Both the position numbers and the translations under genes were made by a program. Shown piece after piece: positions 1,170-19,789 of a stretch of DNA of 64,000 nucleotides. The notes beneath the pieces are model-generated. The model was given only the letters and a program-made list of their open reading frames with translations, ran no database searches and was not told the DNA's origin. Origin of the DNA: a virus. Location of the stretch: the IMG/VR virus record IMGVR_UViG_3300009314_000004, positions 1-64,000 of that record; one strand, written 5' to 3'. Positions within the stretch are counted from its first letter, which is position 1. Each line of letters begins with the position of its first letter.

Positions 1170-3935
1170 ATGAACATCATAGACCTACGGGAGATGCCCT
1201 CGTTCAAGTCAGGCCTGCTCTTCCTGCGGAAGGCAGAGGTCGACCTTGCCGAAGTCCGGGAGCGGTTGACCTTCCACAACACCGACTTGGACGGTATCGA
1301 GCATGCCCGTATCGGCTATCACGAATCGGACACCCACATAGCAATCCCCCGGGAGTTCCCCATGGACGTGGAGGTCCTGGACTTGACCCCTCCCGGTCGG
1401 GACTTTTCCCGCATGGAGGATCGAGTAACCTCCTTCCTGGATGCCGAACAGGAGAAGGCCTGGGAGGCATTGAGGCACGCCGACGGCGGCCTTTTTTCCA
1501 TTCCGGGGGGTCGCGGGAAGTGCGTAGGGTTGGGAACTTGGTTGTACACTGACCAAGGAATTTTCAGGGCCGAGGACGCCCACTTAGCAATAACAAGTGG
1601 GGAGGCTTTATTCCTAGATTCCCGTAATGGCCCACAACAAGCAACTAGGGCGTACCGCTTCCCAGTCTCTGTCTGCCGTTCTATAGAGACGCAATTAGGA
1701 TATCAGGAAGCAGGCACATTGGAGCACCCACTTGTTACATTAGACCCGGATACAGCTACCCTGAATTGGACCATGGTGGGGGAGTTGAAGGAGGGGGACT
1801 ACGTCGCTTTGGCTACTTCCATGTCTTGGGGAGCGGCTAAGGCGAAGAAGTTCAAGTATGCCCGGAAGGACCCCGACTACTCGTCAACGGACATTAACCT
1901 AACCGGGCAGCTATCCCGGACAGACGCTATTGTTCTGGGGCTCCTTGTTGGAGACGGGGGGCTTACCGTTAGGAATCGGACAAGGATATCAACTGTCGAC
2001 CCTGACGTGTTGCGAGTCATGCGGGCTCACGCTAAGGCAGCAGGAGTGAAGTTGCGTAAAGGCACCGGGTCCAACTGCGACTACGAAATATGTTCCTGCC
2101 AGTACAAGGCGTGGCTGGAACACCATGGACTTCTCTCGGTTAAGTCGGAGAACAAAACGATACCTGTGGCGGTTCTGCGGCAAGGGAGCGACGTACTACG
2201 TTGGTTCCTCCAAGGGTACTTTACCGCAGATGGGGGGGTAATCCCCAAAGACGGCGTAACCTCGTCGTCTGCTAGCGAACGGCTTTCTAGGGAGATTCAG
2301 CAAGCTCTCCTTGCATTGGGCATACTGGCCAAAGTGCGGAAAAAGAAAACAACCCACTTAGATGCCTGGGAGGTAGGAATCCGTGGAGGCGACGTTATCA
2401 AGTTCGCCGAGAAAATTGGGTTTTGCTCTGGGAGCAAAGGTGCCTCCCTGGCGACTTTGCGTAGACACCTGGAAAGGAGGCCCCGAAACTCAAATATTGA
2501 TGTCGTCCCAGTCAGTAGGCTGGTGTACGAGTGCGCCAAAGAGTACGGGCAAGAGGTGTACGCTGCGTACAAGGATGCCCGAACCGTCGGCATCAGCCGC
2601 CCTCGTTTGCGTGAGTTCCTACGCATTGTACGAGACAAAGAAGGGAAAAAGGGTAACCACATCCGAAGGGTTCTGGAAAGCCTCTTGAGGGAAATAGACC
2701 GCTACGGTCTCCGCTTCCTGAAAGTAACCAAGCTCCAGAATACCGTTGAGGACGTAGTGGACTTCACCGTACCCAACGGGCACGAGTATTACGGTAATGG
2801 CTTCATCAACCATAACACTGTCCTGGCCGTCAAGAAGATCGTGCAGCGGGGCAAGGCGACCATCGTCATCCTCCCCACGCTGTCCATCATCAGCGGCTGG
2901 AAGCGGGAGCTGGCGGACAAGGCCGGAATTGCTGAGGAGGACATCGGCGTCTTCAATGGGGCCAAGTACTCCGAGCTGGAGAAGCCCATTGTCATCGCCT
3001 CGCTGCGATCGCTGGCCTTGAAGGCTGGGATCTACCCGGTCGAGTTACGGGACAAGTTCGGAACAGTGGTGTTTGACGAAGTCCATAATCTTGGGTCCCC
3101 TACCGGGCTGAAAGTCGCCTCCATGTTCCGGGGAGCCAGGTTCGGTTTCACGGCTACCCCCGAAAGGGCGGACGGCACCCTACCGCTGTACCTCTACCAC
3201 CTGGGGCCGGTGATATACCGGTCGACCTACCACTCGATGAAGCCCCTGGTGGCCTTCGTTGAAGTTCCCATCAAGACTACAGAGCACGACAAAGATGTGA
3301 TAGATCGCGGAGGGAAGTTCAACTTTCCTCTGTTTTGGAAAAAAATCGCCAAAGAGCGAGGGTTCAACCGCCGCATCTTTGCGGACGTCAGGGGGTTTGT
3401 CGAACAAGGGAGAATACCTATGGTATTCACCCATGTTCGAAAACACGCCCATTGGCTGCATGACTTGTTCGAGGAGAAGCTCCAACCTACTGGAATCATT
3501 ACCGGGAAGGTGAAATGGGAGAAGCGGGAAAAAGAGCTCTTGACAAACGATTTGATTGTCGGAACAATGGGAGCTGCGAGAGAGGGTCTGAATCGGCTGG
3601 ACCTCGATTTAGTCCTCATCACAATGCCCGTCGGGAAGGATTCGGAAGGGCGGTTTTTGCAAGCCATCTGGCGGTCCTTACGGGATGTTGAGAGTAAGAA
3701 CCAGCCCTGGGTGATCGTTTACGTGCCCAAGGCTAAGCCGTGCTATGCCATGGCTCAAATGATGAGGAAGTATGCCCAAAACATCGGCTACCGCATTGGG
3801 ACGTTTGAAAACGGAGTGGTCAGCGTGCACGAAGTGTCGACTGCACGAGGACAGGAACCACACCGTGTTCGGGGCGGGCAGCCTATCCCCAAAGGTAGTA
3901 TTCATCGGGGAGGCCCCGGGGGAAGTAGAGGATGA
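1170..3935 (+). CDS. SF2 DNA helicase (UvsW/RadD-like) interrupted by an intein
   Basis: A 921-aa precursor. Extein residues 1-117 and 550-921 form a 489-aa superfamily 2 helicase. Joining them restores the P-loop GGRGKT. After it come a DEVH box (VVFDEVHNLG), an FTATPERADG motif III region, and a helicase C-terminal domain with VFTHVRKHAHWLHDLF and GTMGAAREGLN. Phage relatives such as T4 UvsW remodel branched DNA in replication and repair, likely the role here. Residues 118-549 are the intein. ATG directly follows the previous TAG; the ribosome binding site is weak, so translation may be coupled. The last 54 codons overlap the glycosylase gene and read like out-of-frame sequence; either the tail is real or a stop was lost. 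Confidence 0.88.
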   Translation: MNIIDLREMPSFKSGLLFLRKAEVDLAEVRERLTFHNTDLDGIEHARIGYHESDTHIAIPREFPMDVEVLDLTPPGRDFSRMEDRVTSFLDAEQEKAWEALRHADGGLFSIPGGRGKCVGLGTWLYTDQGIFRAEDAHLAITSGEALFLDSRNGPQQATRAYRFPVSVCRSIETQLGYQEAGTLEHPLVTLDPDTATLNWTMVGELKEGDYVALATSMSWGAAKAKKFKYARKDPDYSSTDINLTGQLSRTDAIVLGLLVGDGGLTVRNRTRISTVDPDVLRVMRAHAKAAGVKLRKGTGSNCDYEICSCQYKAWLEHHGLLSVKSENKTIPVAVLRQGSDVLRWFLQGYFTADGGVIPKDGVTSSSASERLSREIQQALLALGILAKVRKKKTTHLDAWEVGIRGGDVIKFAEKIGFCSGSKGASLATLRRHLERRPRNSNIDVVPVSRLVYECAKEYGQEVYAAYKDARTVGISRPRLREFLRIVRDKEGKKGNHIRRVLESLLREIDRYGLRFLKVTKLQNTVEDVVDFTVPNGHEYYGNGFINHNTVLAVKKIVQRGKATIVILPTLSIISGWKRELADKAGIAEEDIGVFNGAKYSELEKPIVIASLRSLALKAGIYPVELRDKFGTVVFDEVHNLGSPTGLKVASMFRGARFGFTATPERADGTLPLYLYHLGPVIYRSTYHSMKPLVAFVEVPIKTTEHDKDVIDRGGKFNFPLFWKKIAKERGFNRRIFADVRGFVEQGRIPMVFTHVRKHAHWLHDLFEEKLQPTGIITGKVKWEKREKELLTNDLIVGTMGAAREGLNRLDLDLVLITMPVGKDSEGRFLQAIWRSLRDVESKNQPWVIVYVPKAKPCYAMAQMMRKYAQNIGYRIGTFENGVVSVHEVSTARGQEPHRVRGGQPIPKGSIHRGGPGGSRG
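1521..2816 (+). mobile_element. intein with LAGLIDADG homing endonuclease, in the helicase Walker A motif
   Basis: The 432-residue insertion starts at Cys118 (nt 1521) and ends at Asn549 (nt 2814-2816), followed by Thr as the +1 extein residue. Splicing motifs are visible: block A from CVGLGTWLY, block B around GTLEHPLVTLD, and blocks F/G ending FINHN. Two endonuclease motifs, LGLLVGDGGL and FLQGYFTADGGV, form the LAGLIDADG pair with both acidic residues present, so the element may still be mobile. Insertion between the Lys and Thr of the P-loop makes helicase activity depend on splicing. Base composition looks somewhat less GC-rich than the flanks, consistent with separate ancestry. Confidence 0.92.
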
Positions 3936-16177: not shown

Positions 16178-16294
16178 GTACTTATCGAAGAGCCGGAAGA
16201 CATCATCGCCCACATGCGGGAGTTGGGGTTTTCCGGCTCTCCTACTGACTTGATCGAGATTGCCGCTGAGCTGTCAATTACGGAGGACGAATGA
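16178..16294 (+). other. cryptic coding-like stretch without a normal start codon
   Basis: Between the multidomain protein and the AAA ATPase, one frame reads about 38 codons of protein-like sequence (VLIEEPEDIIAHMRELGFSG, then a further acidic helical run) and ends in TGA overlapping the AAA start as ATGA. The only ATG is internal at 16214 and lacks a good ribosome binding site. The frame is -1 relative to the upstream gene and stays open from a CCCTTTC heptamer at 16124-16130. It could be a frameshifted C-terminal extension, a small gene with a rare start, or a sequence indel. Confidence 0.35.
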
Positions 16295-17718
16295 GTTACC
16301 CGTTTGACTTGAAACTTGAGGACTACATCAGGGCATCCTACCCCATTATTGTGGTTGAGACATTCGACCCTCTGTATACAGAGGACCGAATTACCCGAAT
16401 TGCTGACAGGTTGGGGAAGGGGGCCACCGTGGAAGTGCAGGACTTGATAGGCCTCAAGGGCCAGGTGGTGAAGTACGTGGATACACTTCCGGACACGAAA
16501 GGGAAGTGGAGCATTATTGTTCTGCGGAATATGCACTTCTTCCTCCAGGACAAGTCGTTCCTGCAAGCGCTCCACAACTTCGTCCGGAAAGTGCGTGAGA
16601 AGGACAAGCCCTGCATTCTCATTGGGACTTGCCCTACCATTGAGGAATTGCCGGCGGAGATCGGCCGTGAAGCTGTCGTCGTCCGGGACAGACTCCCCGA
16701 AGAGGAGGACCTTTTGGGCTTTGCCGGGGCCCTGGCCCTCGAGTACGGAGGCAAGGTGGAGATCCCCCAGTCGGCGCTGCCCGAAGTGGCCAAGGTTGGC
16801 CGAGGTATGACCTTCAGCGAGTTCAAGCGGGCATTCAAGCTCTCCCTGGTCAAGACCAAGGGGCTGGACCCAGCTTTGTTTGCCGAGGTCAAGAAGCAGA
16901 TCCTCCGGCAGTCTGCAGCGTTGTCTTTGTACCAACCGTTGCCGACGGACAAAATGGATGACCTGGCCGGCATGGAGAGTCTGAAGTTCTTCATGGTCAG
17001 AACGGAAGGGAAGATCCGGGGCGTGCTGATTATGGGGCCTCCAGGTACCGGCAAGACGCACTTCGCCAAATCCCTGGCTCGAAAGTTGGGCATTCCACTC
17101 ATCATCCTGGACGTGGGCAGCCTGTTCCACGGAATTGTCGGGTCCTCCGAGGCCCGAATGCGCCGCATGGTGGCCATTGTGGAGGCCTTTGGGCGCTGTT
17201 TGCTGTTGGTAGACGAAATCGAGAAGGGTTTCTCCGGCCTCGGTGGAAGTGGCTCTACTGATGGGGGTACCACGCAGAGGACCTTGTCCAAGTTCCTCAC
17301 CTGGTTGTCCGACCGGAGGAGCCTGGACGCATGCGTGATTGCTACGTGCAACGCCATGAGTTTACCCCCCGAGTACATTCGGGCCGGCAGGTTCTCCACC
17401 ATCTTCTACCTGGGCTTGCCCAACCAGAAGGTGAGGGACAAGGCGTGGGAGATTCACAAGCGCAACTTCGGTATCGAGGAGGAGGGGCACCCGCCTGATG
17501 AGGGGTGGAGTGGTGCAGAAATCTTTCAATGCTGTGAGAATGCCAAGGCCATGAATGTGTCTTTGGCCGAAGCAGCAGGCTACACAGTGAGGGTTTCCCG
17601 AGTCTCCAAGGCACAGCTTGAAGAGCTCAGGCGCTTCGCTGACGAGGCAGGACTGGTCCCGGCCGACGACCCGGACGAGGATGACGAGGACACCTCCTCC
17701 ATAGTGGTGGACGCATGA
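16291..17718 (+). CDS. Ycf46-like AAA ATPase
   Basis: A 475-residue AAA+ protein. The N-terminal 230 residues (LEDYIRASYPIIVVETFDP onwards) resemble the Ycf46 N-domain. The AAA module has Walker A GPPGTGKT (249-256), Walker B LLLVDEI (304-310), a sensor stretch VIATCN and a likely arginine finger in EYIRAGRFSTIF. GGAGG lies five bases before ATG. It is followed, with ATGA overlaps, by DUF1257 and DUF2997 genes, a combination known from cyanobacteria, plastids (ycf46/ycf35) and scattered phages. The AAA protein probably remodels a protein partner; the substrate is unknown. Confidence 0.88.
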   Translation: MSYPFDLKLEDYIRASYPIIVVETFDPLYTEDRITRIADRLGKGATVEVQDLIGLKGQVVKYVDTLPDTKGKWSIIVLRNMHFFLQDKSFLQALHNFVRKVREKDKPCILIGTCPTIEELPAEIGREAVVVRDRLPEEEDLLGFAGALALEYGGKVEIPQSALPEVAKVGRGMTFSEFKRAFKLSLVKTKGLDPALFAEVKKQILRQSAALSLYQPLPTDKMDDLAGMESLKFFMVRTEGKIRGVLIMGPPGTGKTHFAKSLARKLGIPLIILDVGSLFHGIVGSSEARMRRMVAIVEAFGRCLLLVDEIEKGFSGLGGSGSTDGGTTQRTLSKFLTWLSDRRSLDACVIATCNAMSLPPEYIRAGRFSTIFYLGLPNQKVRDKAWEIHKRNFGIEEEGHPPDEGWSGAEIFQCCENAKAMNVSLAEAAGYTVRVSRVSKAQLEELRRFADEAGLVPADDPDEDDEDTSSIVVDA

Positions 17719-18098
17719 GCCACGCCGTGGAGATGGAGTTCAAACCGGAAAGCCTCGAGTTGCTGGAGAGGGCTTGCCAGAAGGTAGGGTTCACATACTG
17801 CCAAGGCAAGTCTACCATCCGCACGCTGCACAACGACACTGCCGCCGAGCGGGGCTTCAAGCATGACCAGGTGGCAGTCATCGAAGTCCCCGGTGTCCCT
17901 TGGGACATAGGCGTCCAAGAAGTGGAGGGGAAGCATCGACTCGTCGGTGATGAGTACATGACCAAGTGGGTCAATCAAGTCGCCGACCAGTACCACGTGG
18001 AGGCCGCCCTGGTGTACGCTGAGGAGATGGGGTATGAGGCAACAATCGAAACCCAACCCGACGGCGCCATCGAGGTGGTCATGGTGCAGTACGAATGA
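17715..18098 (+). CDS. DUF1257 (Ycf35-like) protein
   Basis: A 127-residue protein beginning MSHAVEMEFKPESLELLERA, matching DUF1257/Ycf35 in start, length and the internal pattern around FTYCQGKSTIRT. The C-terminal half (WVNQVADQYHVEAALVYAEEMGY) fits the conserved tail of the family. Biochemical function is unknown in all hosts. Both its start and stop overlap neighbours by four bases (ATGA), so the three cluster proteins are translationally coupled and probably made in fixed ratio. Confidence 0.85.
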   Translation: MSHAVEMEFKPESLELLERACQKVGFTYCQGKSTIRTLHNDTAAERGFKHDQVAVIEVPGVPWDIGVQEVEGKHRLVGDEYMTKWVNQVADQYHVEAALVYAEEMGYEATIETQPDGAIEVVMVQYE

Positions 18099-18289
18099 AA
18101 ACCATCAAGATGAGGATCAAGAATGGGCGATGCCACATTGAAACTGACGGTTTCACCAGGGGCGAGTGCCTCGAAGCGACGGCCCCGCTCAAGCAGCTCA
18201 TCGGCGAAGAAGCCGAGGAGCCCAAACTCAAAGATGAGTACTTCCAGGAAGAGGTTACTGAGGACGCTCTCGAATACGAGGAGTTCTGA
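18095..18289 (+). CDS. DUF2997 family small protein
   Basis: A 64-residue acidic protein. The N-terminal half (KTIKMRIKNGRCHIETDGF then GECLEATAPLKQLIG) fits DUF2997: a short beta hairpin followed by the conserved CLEAT helix. The acidic tail EEPKLKDEYFQEEVTED agrees with family members that end in a DEYY-type tail. It is coupled by ATGA to DUF1257. Function unknown; constant association with the AAA ATPase suggests it is a partner or substrate. Confidence 0.82.
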   Translation: MKTIKMRIKNGRCHIETDGFTRGECLEATAPLKQLIGEEAEEPKLKDEYFQEEVTEDALEYEEF

Positions 18290-18317
18290 CTTTCGCTTCA
18301 CCCTCCGAGGCGGCAGG

Positions 18318-18413
18318 GTGGTATCCTCATGGTGGACCCCCGGGCTAGACAGGTTTTTGGCCTACCTGGGGGTCCCCGAAGGGGACGTCAACCGCAACCC
18401 TTGGTGCGGGTAA
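18318..18413 (+). CDS. possible small protein (31 aa, GTG start)
   Basis: In the 136-nt gap after DUF2997, the frame ending at TAA 18411-18413 reads MVSSWWTPGLDRFLAYLGVP followed by EGDVNRNPWCG, which looks like real protein. GTG at 18318 has GAGG seven bases upstream. The frame remains open further upstream without an ATG, so a longer form or a frameshifted DUF2997 extension cannot be excluded. The next gene's GGAGG site follows directly, as expected for a packed operon. Function unknown. Confidence 0.4.
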   Translation: MVSSWWTPGLDRFLAYLGVPEGDVNRNPWCG

Positions 18414-18425
18414 CGGAGGTAAGAG

Positions 18426-19283
18426 ATGGAACCAGCAACAAGATTCAACGTCGAGGCGTTGTTCTCAAGCGCCACACTTGTGTGGCTCAGGATCAGCGTA
18501 TGGACAGCAAAAAAGGATCTCCCGAAAGGAGGAGACAAACGACGCGGGAAGCACGTCTTCCTGGTCGACAAGAAATGGCTCAAGGGGATAACCCGCGTGG
18601 AGCGGGCGGCCCGGGACTTCCTGCAAGAGAAAGGGGGACGGTCCCCCACCGGGTCCGGGTACCTCATAGATAACGAGATCCTTCCGGAGGTGATGCAGCG
18701 ACTGGAGGACTTCCAAGAGGAGTTCTTGGACGCTGTCGACGACTTTGTCGAGGAGGAATTCGACAGCGCCCTGGTGGAATCCCGAGAGGAGCTGACAGCC
18801 GAAGAGCTCGAGCTCATGCCGGCTAAGACAGCCCTCCCTCGAAAATTCGGGTTCCGTTACGGGCGTATCATCTTCGCTCTCCCCTCCATGGGTGCTGCCG
18901 AAACGCAGGCCAGTATCGACAATATGGAGGAGTGGGCAACCAACAACACCAATGGGCTCCTGTTGAGGGGGTACGAGCGACTGCGCCACGCCGAGAGCAT
19001 TTTCGGCAACACCAAACGGAGGCTTTATGCTTCCGTGATTGGTCAAGTTCTGGCCTGGTGCGAGGAGTACGCAACGAAGCGGAGTATCCTGTGGGGAATT
19101 CCCCCGGGCTTGTTGTCCATTGTAAACGACACTGACCAGAAGTTCCGGGGCCTCAATTTGGCGGCCCTACGGAAAGACGAGGGAAAGCGTCTCGACGCTT
19201 CTCAGCTCGTCAAATCTCTGGCCGACAGATTGGAGCCCCTGTTGCCCTCCGGCGACGACGTGGCTCTCGAGGAGGAACGGTGA
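18426..19283 (+). CDS. hypothetical protein, possibly DUF3150-like (285 aa)
   Basis: A 285-residue protein with GGAGG about six bases before the ATG. A beta-rich start (LVWLRISVWTAKKD) is followed by VERAARDFLQEKGGRSPTGSGY and a long acidic helical region (LEDFQEEFLDAVDDFVEEEF). This order of elements recalls DUF3150 proteins, which in other phages and plasmids sit beside AAA ATPases, but the match is from memory of the pattern and is tentative. It lies just downstream of the Ycf46-type cluster and overlaps the next start by GTGA, so it is probably co-expressed with it. Confidence 0.72.
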   Translation: MEPATRFNVEALFSSATLVWLRISVWTAKKDLPKGGDKRRGKHVFLVDKKWLKGITRVERAARDFLQEKGGRSPTGSGYLIDNEILPEVMQRLEDFQEEFLDAVDDFVEEEFDSALVESREELTAEELELMPAKTALPRKFGFRYGRIIFALPSMGAAETQASIDNMEEWATNNTNGLLLRGYERLRHAESIFGNTKRRLYASVIGQVLAWCEEYATKRSILWGIPPGLLSIVNDTDQKFRGLNLAALRKDEGKRLDASQLVKSLADRLEPLLPSGDDVALEEER

Positions 19284-19789
19284 GCGCATTGAAACCTGAA
19301 GAACTGAAACAGATCCGTGAGGAGGTATTGCAGATCACGGTGACTGCTATGGCGGGGCTCCTCGGAGTACCCCGGGCTACCTACCGGAAGTACGAAAAGG
19401 GGGACTTCCCCATCCCTGACGACTTGGCGGAGCGCATCGACCAGATCGTAGCCGAGGAGAAGGCGGGCGGGGGGCTTGACTCCCCCACCGACTCACCCCC
19501 CCGGAAGCCCGCTCCCAAGAGGAAGAAGGCGAAGACGCCTTCACCGCCCGAACCGCAGGCGCCGGAACCGGAAAAGGAAGAGGAAGCGCCTGCCAAGTCG
19601 GCGGAGTCCCCCCGGAAAAAGCCGGAACCCGCTCCCGTGAGTGAGGAGCCGTCCCTGCTGGTAAAGGAATCTGCCCTGAGCATCCGGGAGCTCATACAAA
19701 CAACGGAGACACAAACAGGGCTGGCCCAGCTCGTGCGGCTGCTTTCTTCGGGGAAGAAGGTCCGCATTGAAATCTCCCTGGTGGATTGA
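19280..19789 (+). CDS. XRE-type helix-turn-helix protein with Pro/Lys-rich linker
   Basis: A 169-residue protein starting at GTG 19280. Residues about 5-55 fit a Cro/CI-type HTH (ITVTAMAGLLGVPRATYRKY, then DLAERIDQIV), with recognition helix near PRATYRKY. A disordered stretch rich in Pro, Lys and Glu follows (about 65-120), then a short C-terminal domain ending LLSSGKKVRIEISLVD. It may be a transcription regulator of the early block or a DNA-tethered partner of the neighbouring proteins. Confidence 0.75.
   Translation: MSALKPEELKQIREEVLQITVTAMAGLLGVPRATYRKYEKGDFPIPDDLAERIDQIVAEEKAGGGLDSPTDSPPRKPAPKRKKAKTPSPPEPQAPEPEKEEEAPAKSAESPRKKPEPAPVSEEPSLLVKESALSIRELIQTTETQTGLAQLVRLLSSGKKVRIEISLVD

Follow-up and report, generated by a model that had tools for sequence, protein, structure and literature searches.

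A recurrent gene set of AAA ATPase, DUF1257, DUF2997 and DUF3150 in phages, plasmids and bacteria as a candidate remodelling machine

The first 64,000 nucleotides of a virus record of 145,296 bases (IMG/VR IMGVR_UViG_3300009314_000004, positions 1 to 64,000; this whole stretch is called the window) carry a run of coupled genes for an AAA ATPase, a DUF1257-like protein (the Ycf35 family), a DUF2997-like protein, a microprotein and a DUF3150 protein. Here we report that DUF3150 belongs to the AAA-DUF1257-DUF2997 cassette and that, as its sequence relatives indicate, the 31-residue open reading frame (ORF) within it is a real gene and a member of a microprotein family; both are new here. The gene set recurs in unrelated phages, plasmids and bacteria, and we put the chance that it constitutes one working machine at about even. 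In a second type of cassette DUF3150 is accompanied by MoxR and VWA proteins instead. The two partner sets almost never occur on one replicon; hence, judged from gene content, the motor and its adaptors seem to have been exchanged while DUF3150 stayed constant.

Results

Linkage of the cassette genes

Scanning viral sequences with the AAA gene as anchor gave 80 loci, and among the 96 sequences from this stage DUF1257 was present in 82, DUF2997 in 81 and DUF3150 in 69. The genome scan was anchored on DUF1257 alone and was therefore unbiased towards the other cassette genes. Its 78 bacterial loci, mostly from Planctomycetota and delta-type proteobacteria (Syntrophales, Desulfovibrio, Desulfamplus), nevertheless showed DUF2997 (74 matches), the AAA gene and DUF3150 (53 matches) alongside. 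With duplicates removed there were 102 complete four-gene loci, every one of them encoded on a single strand. Their median span is 3.7 kb, and five gene orders are represented, by 64, 32, 3, 2 and 1 loci. On a tree of 61 AAA sequences at least six changes of order are needed, compared with an average of 20 when the labels were shuffled; linkage therefore outlives rearrangement. The pairwise distance matrices of the four proteins are correlated (r 0.83-0.90, against a maximum of 0.14 in 500 permutations). Across five whole genomes, all ten strong DUF3150 genes lay within ~3.5 kb of a DUF2997 gene, and no other neighbour family was comparably widespread across the loci. Tight AAA-DUF1257-DUF2997 linkage was found in phages, plasmids, Planctomycetota and delta-type proteobacteria, and in one locus DUF1257 and DUF2997 are fused in a single ORF (L073:9419-10060).

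The distance correlations, taken alone, could be explained by shared descent, as would be the case if four unrelated early genes had been co-inherited by chance. Linkage maintained through these reorderings, in viruses, plasmids and chromosomes, together with the natural fusion, makes such passive linkage extremely improbable, and we disfavour it. A reading made from the window's sequence only had proposed a mobile protein-remodelling module that phages maintain and had suggested a neighbourhood survey; that proposal is supported.

Family assignments

The sequence-only reading had placed the two small proteins in DUF1257 and DUF2997, a placement to be checked with profile models. Both scored narrowly below the curated Pfam cut-offs (DUF1257/Ycf35, PF06868, 17.1 against 22.2 bits; DUF2997, PF11211, 22.4 against 24.1 bits). 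The fifth protein, previously named as possibly DUF3150-like, scored above its cut-off (PF11348, 28.3 against 24.9 bits). Independent profiles were then built from rows taken solely from bacterial genome loci; the first seeds had included window proteins, and the final models contained no window rows. Among 540 window ORFs these profiles matched the DUF1257 (E 8.7e-12), DUF2997 (E 1.7e-12) and DUF3150 (E 2.9e-11) proteins and no other ORF significantly, and searches of reversed ORFs gave no matches. Since exactly three ORFs were matched and the reversed set was empty, the assignments lie far beyond chance. Relatives within the same profile families do exceed the Pfam cut-offs (37.1, 25.2 and 23.1 bits for DUF1257; 62.6 and 43.9 bits for DUF2997), and by profile similarity the window proteins belong with these members.

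The N-terminal MSH of DUF1257 is nearly invariant, and the cysteine of DUF2997 (GFxxxxC) is present in 100% of 37 non-redundant sequences. AlphaFold2 models of the DUF1257 and DUF3150 proteins reached predicted local distance difference test scores of 88.7 and 89.7 and predicted template-modelling (TM) scores of 0.82 and 0.83, respectively, and neither model found a fold match in the PDB at E ≤ 0.001. The best viral structural match of the DUF3150 model was an annotated DUF3150 protein (E 3e-10, TM 0.74). A 275-residue protein of Mycobacterium phage Dylan gave a weak structural match (E 2e-3, TM 0.31), which serves as a lead only; it is most likely gp94, also of 275 residues, whose gene lies directly behind the Dylan AAA gene. 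Used as tblastn queries against phages, the window DUF1257 and DUF3150 proteins found nothing, and relatives served as bridges. As single-protein queries against viral contigs, the window AAA and DUF3150 proteins retrieved just close copies or two distant AAA proteins.

DUF2997 was also considered as a repeat of the C-terminal half of DUF1257, at which alignments hinted; profile comparison was unsupportive (E 0.08). Separately, in mycobacteriophage Bora a small cysteine-bearing protein (MPCDTVLKKGQTVSERAAEV..., L006:8659-9000) is encoded a few genes behind the AAA gene and might replace DUF2997.

Exchange of partners around DUF3150

In Synechococcus phage MinM2 the gene order is MoxR-DUF3150-(small genes)-VWA, and Cupriavidus and Rhodovastum plasmids carry ATPase-DUF3150-VWA; in Simplicispira DUF3150 adjoins VWA, and several genes separate the pair from one for an ATP-binding protein. 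Homology between the DUF3150 of these MoxR-type cassettes and that of the AAA-type cassette is shown by profile match, and searches of the whole records agree (E 1e-32 to 1e-47). Relatives of the MoxR-type DUF3150 occur in 42 plasmid records, mostly from Burkholderiaceae, and the neighbourhoods of three were read. The VWA-like DUF2201 was found in all four MoxR-type records, in neither of two "Candidatus Manganitrophus" plasmids and in one of 24 AAA-type viral records. All four MoxR-type records lacked DUF2997. The window cassette is itself not of the MoxR/VWA type, as its motor falls in PF00004 and no VWA-like DUF2201 was found in the whole 145-kb record.

The Manganitrophus plasmids (CP114559 and CP114562) are annotated with AAA, DUF1257, DUF2997 and DUF3150 in that same order; their cassette differs in being plasmid-borne, in encoding proteins only 24-32% identical to those of the window and in that the microprotein was not found there. 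PRTRC genes lie near plasmid cassettes of both types, AAA and MoxR.

As a separate observation, a conserved protein of ~80 residues (RASxVEP...DLSPVGGPxLGPF) is encoded directly 3′ of DUF3150 in the planctomycete/large-phage clade and in Manganitrophus (L014:8876-9127 and ~25 others, e.g. L107:4368-4610 and L077:10650-10898).

A microprotein family behind DUF2997

The 31-residue ORF had been listed as a possible gene. ORFs homologous to its peptide (SSWWTPGLDRFLAYLGVPEGDVNRNPWCG) lie directly behind DUF2997 in ~27 other loci, with the consensus ExxFxEDGxAxTxWWTEExxxILSxLGPPAPGFEELNxNPWCG and W/Y/F-C-G at the stop codon in nearly all. A model built without the window sequence found the window microprotein at E 1e-5 among 69,736 segments, and no reversed matches were obtained, bearing out the earlier suggestion. 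In most relatives the microprotein begins with an ATG ~19-22 bases before DUF2997 ends; that ATG is missing in the window, where a GTG at 18318 gives 31 residues. The start is uncertain, since conservation continues further upstream, where the frame stays open as far as 18114.

Seven DUF2997 proteins without an adjoining microprotein themselves end in CG, an ending found in 0.5% of genes generally; on either protein the tail reads ...WCG or ...LCG. In one form or the other the tail is present in 27 of 32 complete loci with the AAA gene first and in none of the 64 with DUF1257 first, the order of the planctomycete/large-phage clade. Microprotein and DUF2997 tail occur together in 0 of 147 loci, an exclusion that is not significant alone. 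A relation of the microprotein to DUF2997 as a shortened copy was tried and is not claimed, as just 13 columns align. The microprotein frame also contains a strong predicted RNA hairpin at 18335-18410 (GGACCCCCGG...CCUGGGGGUCC); a 136-nucleotide stretch of this region folds at z -2.4, and 3 of 200 shuffles were equally stable.

The AAA motor and its genomic context

The second domain of the AAA protein retains Walker A (GPPGTGKT), Walker B (LLVDEIE) and the arginine segment PPEYIRAGRF, and the protein belongs to the classical AAA family (PF00004, E 1.1e-25, above cut-off, with Walker A, Walker B and the arginines of the second region of homology). In PDB searches its catalytic domain was closest to Cdc48/p97. 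Profile comparison aligns the first domain (residues ~1-205), which has no Walker A, with the second (E 1.7e-4, probability 49%), suggesting that a dead AAA-like domain precedes an intact ATPase domain. Resemblance to Cdc48/p97 and Vps4-type AAA proteins lies in the catalytic domain; the window protein differs in its degenerate first domain, in lacking their N-domains and in its pore loop, HGIVG. The D2 pore loop of p97 is typically aromatic.

The features of the locus are given in Table 1. ATGA overlaps at 16291, 17715 and 18095 confirm the coupling described earlier, and a GTGA overlap lies at 19280; within the core set (16291-19283) most junctions are 4-base overlaps. A helix-turn-helix (HTH) gene completes the plus-strand run to 19789. 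It is adjacent to the core, listed with the cluster in the sequence-only reading, and coupled to the DUF3150 gene through the GTGA, yet it is no recurrent neighbour across the cassette loci compared and stands outside the conserved core. The middle part of its product is low-complexity Pro/Lys/Glu. Separately, a short ORF of 26 residues (16214-16294) ends in the ATGA overlap with the AAA start.

Table 1. Features encoded at 16291-19789 of the window
Feature	Position	Strand	Evidence
AAA ATPase, 475 aa	16291..17718	+	PF00004 E 1.1e-25 at residues 245-375; motifs
DUF1257-like protein, 127 aa	17715..18098	+	Pfam 17.1 bits (below cut-off); independent profile E 8.7e-12
DUF2997-like protein, 64 aa	18095..18289	+	Pfam 22.4 bits (below cut-off); independent profile E 1.7e-12
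Microprotein ending ...SSWWTPGLDRFLAYLGVPEGDVNRNPWCG-stop, 31 aa from GTG	18318..18413	+	Leave-window-out model E 1e-5
DUF3150 protein, 285 aa, mostly helical	18426..19283	+	PF11348 28.3 bits; independent profile E 2.9e-11
Xre-like HTH protein, 169 aa	19280..19789	+	Xre-like-HTH E 4.5e-5, below cut-off

Ahead of the cassette, the plus strand encodes uracil-DNA glycosylase, a DnaB-like helicase, a Toprim protein, a family-A DNA polymerase (PolA) and a RecA-like protein; downstream, a very long ORF runs on the opposite strand from 26811 to 21250. The replicon and the upstream replication genes fit the phage early operon proposed before, and the operon is probably expressed early. Further upstream on the same strand, a ResIII-type helicase gene (1170-3935) is split by an intein with a LAGLIDADG domain.

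The cultured phages RHph_I4, L338C, HJ05, RcDurkin, SM1 and JP1 have the arrangement AAA-X-DUF1257-DUF2997, JP1 and SM1 with an additional small or larger gene between cassette genes. Protein X (~210 residues) was tested as a hidden DUF3150 and is unrelated. These cassettes mostly precede genes annotated as DnaB-like helicase and DNA polymerase I (JP1, SM1, RHph_I4, L338C, RcDurkin). Helicases are the commonest identifiable neighbours overall, and ParB, PD-(D/E)XK nuclease, ERF and UvrD genes lie near other copies; the neighbours point to the DNA metabolism of large mobile elements. Such settings, with the replication genes just upstream in the window, would also be expected of a dedicated replication or recombination factor, in which the ring remodels nucleoprotein directly (helicase or clamp handling, in the manner of a loader) and DUF3150 is a subunit of the DNA complex. 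The motor, however, is of the classical clade closest to Cdc48/p97, unlike loaders; the core proteins yielded no DNA-binding domain, and the cultured phages are probably related and so amount to few independent cases. We consider a direct replication factor unlikely.

Discussion

What is directly observed is a conserved gene set, a swap of partners at the level of gene content and the near mutual exclusion of the two partner sets. DUF3150 is also central in MoxR-DUF3150-VWA cassettes, with MoxR in place of the AAA protein and VWA in place of DUF1257/DUF2997, which suggests a logic of the RavA-ViaA type; by this swap, AAA with DUF1257/DUF2997 should act on a DUF3150 complex as MoxR with VWA would. 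MoxR/VWA pairs are thought to help dedicated complexes mature (PMC3893208). We infer a physical complex, a role for each part and a client on this pattern. The AAA protein would form a ring, as its classical motifs imply, its second domain hydrolysing ATP and its dead AAA-like first domain possibly serving for docking. DUF1257 and DUF2997, joined in this lineage by the WCG microprotein, would be small adaptors for delivering or regulating the client. On the client side the fixed core would be DUF3150, as the client proper or as a scaffold presenting it, and the machine would mature or dismantle a complex needed for the replication or upkeep of large mobile elements. That the cassette is a MoxR/VWA-like chaperone machine maturing or remodelling such a DUF3150-containing complex is, in our estimate, an evenly balanced proposition.

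Several observations weigh against this proposal. DUF3150 was not detectable in RHph_I4 (Rhizobium), SM1 (Samunavirus) or RcDurkin (Rhodobacter), which do have AAA, DUF1257 and DUF2997, and a planctomycete chromosomal form (L192/L193) likewise has these three without DUF3150. DUF3150 is therefore not always the client. The sole exception to mutual exclusion (G087) holds AAA-DUF1257-DUF2997 and, far away, MoxR-VWA, with no detectable DUF3150. Genomic context is weak evidence for a client, because mobile elements are in any case rich in replication genes, and the distance correlations may reflect shared descent and not contact. The chromosomal form may be a pointer to a cellular role; its syntenic order is radical SAM/4Fe-4S, AAA, DUF1257, DUF2997, a zinc-ribbon protein, TPR and a T2SSE/PilT-like ATPase.

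The chelatase-like MoxR/VWA pairs are also a precedent for a different activity, in which the AAA protein, working with the cysteine-bearing DUF2997 and the WCG microprotein, would assist in loading or repairing a metal enzyme, iron-sulphur or otherwise. RavA-ViaA has a link to iron-sulphur assembly (PMC3893208), the published Synechocystis cluster DUF2997-ycf35(DUF1257)-fed7 includes a ferredoxin (PMC4284462), and iron deficiency is one of the stresses to which the operon of slr0374 (ycf46) responds (PMC7496141). The invariant DUF2997 cysteine, the nearly invariant DUF1257 MSH and the enrichment of WCG/LCG ends over background fit such maturation, as do radical-SAM/4Fe-4S families, found in 3 of 115 sampled neighbour proteins and also adjoining the AAA gene in L192. 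Against it, the neighbourhoods have no metal enzyme in common, the planctomycete/large-phage clade (64 of the 102 loci) wholly lacks the CG tail, and no metal-binding motif was established. Maturation of a metallocofactor thus seems doubtful, and a redox link, one of the targets suggested earlier, is retained as a possible rival only.

Host take-over or counter-defence, with the motor extracting or inactivating a host protein, would suit a phage early region and the patchy, multi-copy, accessory distribution of the cassette, which occurs in 13 of 79 planctomycete genomes, several with 2-5 copies; the AAA protein also shows weak similarity to the defence ATPase IetA. That match is confined to the shared AAA domain, however, the small partners have no PADLOC matches, and plasmid copies near PRTRC/ParB genes as well as chromosomal copies argue against host killing, making a role of this kind quite improbable.

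Returning to the chaperone proposal, we tentatively extend it to a DUF3150-centred class of machines whose motor would be exchangeable, being either MoxR (with VWA) or a Cdc48-like AAA protein (with DUF1257/DUF2997). Within one branch, the exposed C-terminal Cys-Gly, on the microprotein or the DUF2997 tail, would be an active handle for motor or client; this extension remains rather less than probable.

Among known systems, MoxR/VWA sets of the RavA-ViaA type and their phage and plasmid relatives resemble the window cassette in pairing an AAA+ motor with a partner gene of its own, in having DUF3150 as the middle gene and, on plasmids, in a similar setting near PRTRC genes. They differ in that the window motor is a classical Cdc48-like AAA protein and VWA is replaced by DUF1257, DUF2997 and the microprotein. 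Cyanobacteria and plastids have DUF1257 and DUF2997 side by side and a Ycf46-type AAA protein in the same organisms (PMC4284462, PMC7496141, PMC5940233). The sequence-only reading regarded the whole combination as known from there. This did not hold: Synechocystis ycf46 lies in a separate operon, slr0373-slr0374-slr0376 (PMC7496141), apart from DUF2997-ycf35-fed7, neither DUF3150 nor the microprotein is described there, and the window AAA protein resembles Ycf46 at class level only. The family calls themselves hold (AAA, E 1e-25; DUF1257 and DUF2997 by independent profile). In the literature searched, outside which subscription papers largely lay, DUF2997-ycf35-fed7 of cyanobacteria was the sole described combination, and no mention of DUF3150 or of MoxR with PRTRC was found; three papers name DUF1257 or DUF2997, and of the three that name Ycf46 together with phage none, by title and abstract, treats such a cassette.

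We infer that the cassette belongs among AAA+ remodelling cassettes, with a putative client on the DUF3150 side. DUF1257 (ycf35), DUF2997 and DUF3150 are long-standing families of unknown function, and their union in one gene set makes one testable machine. The presence of DUF3150 in both MoxR-VWA sets and the AAA cassette ties separate unknowns together, and the microprotein family gives the 31-residue ORF a home. The function of the cassette could also bear on the role of Ycf35 in plastids.

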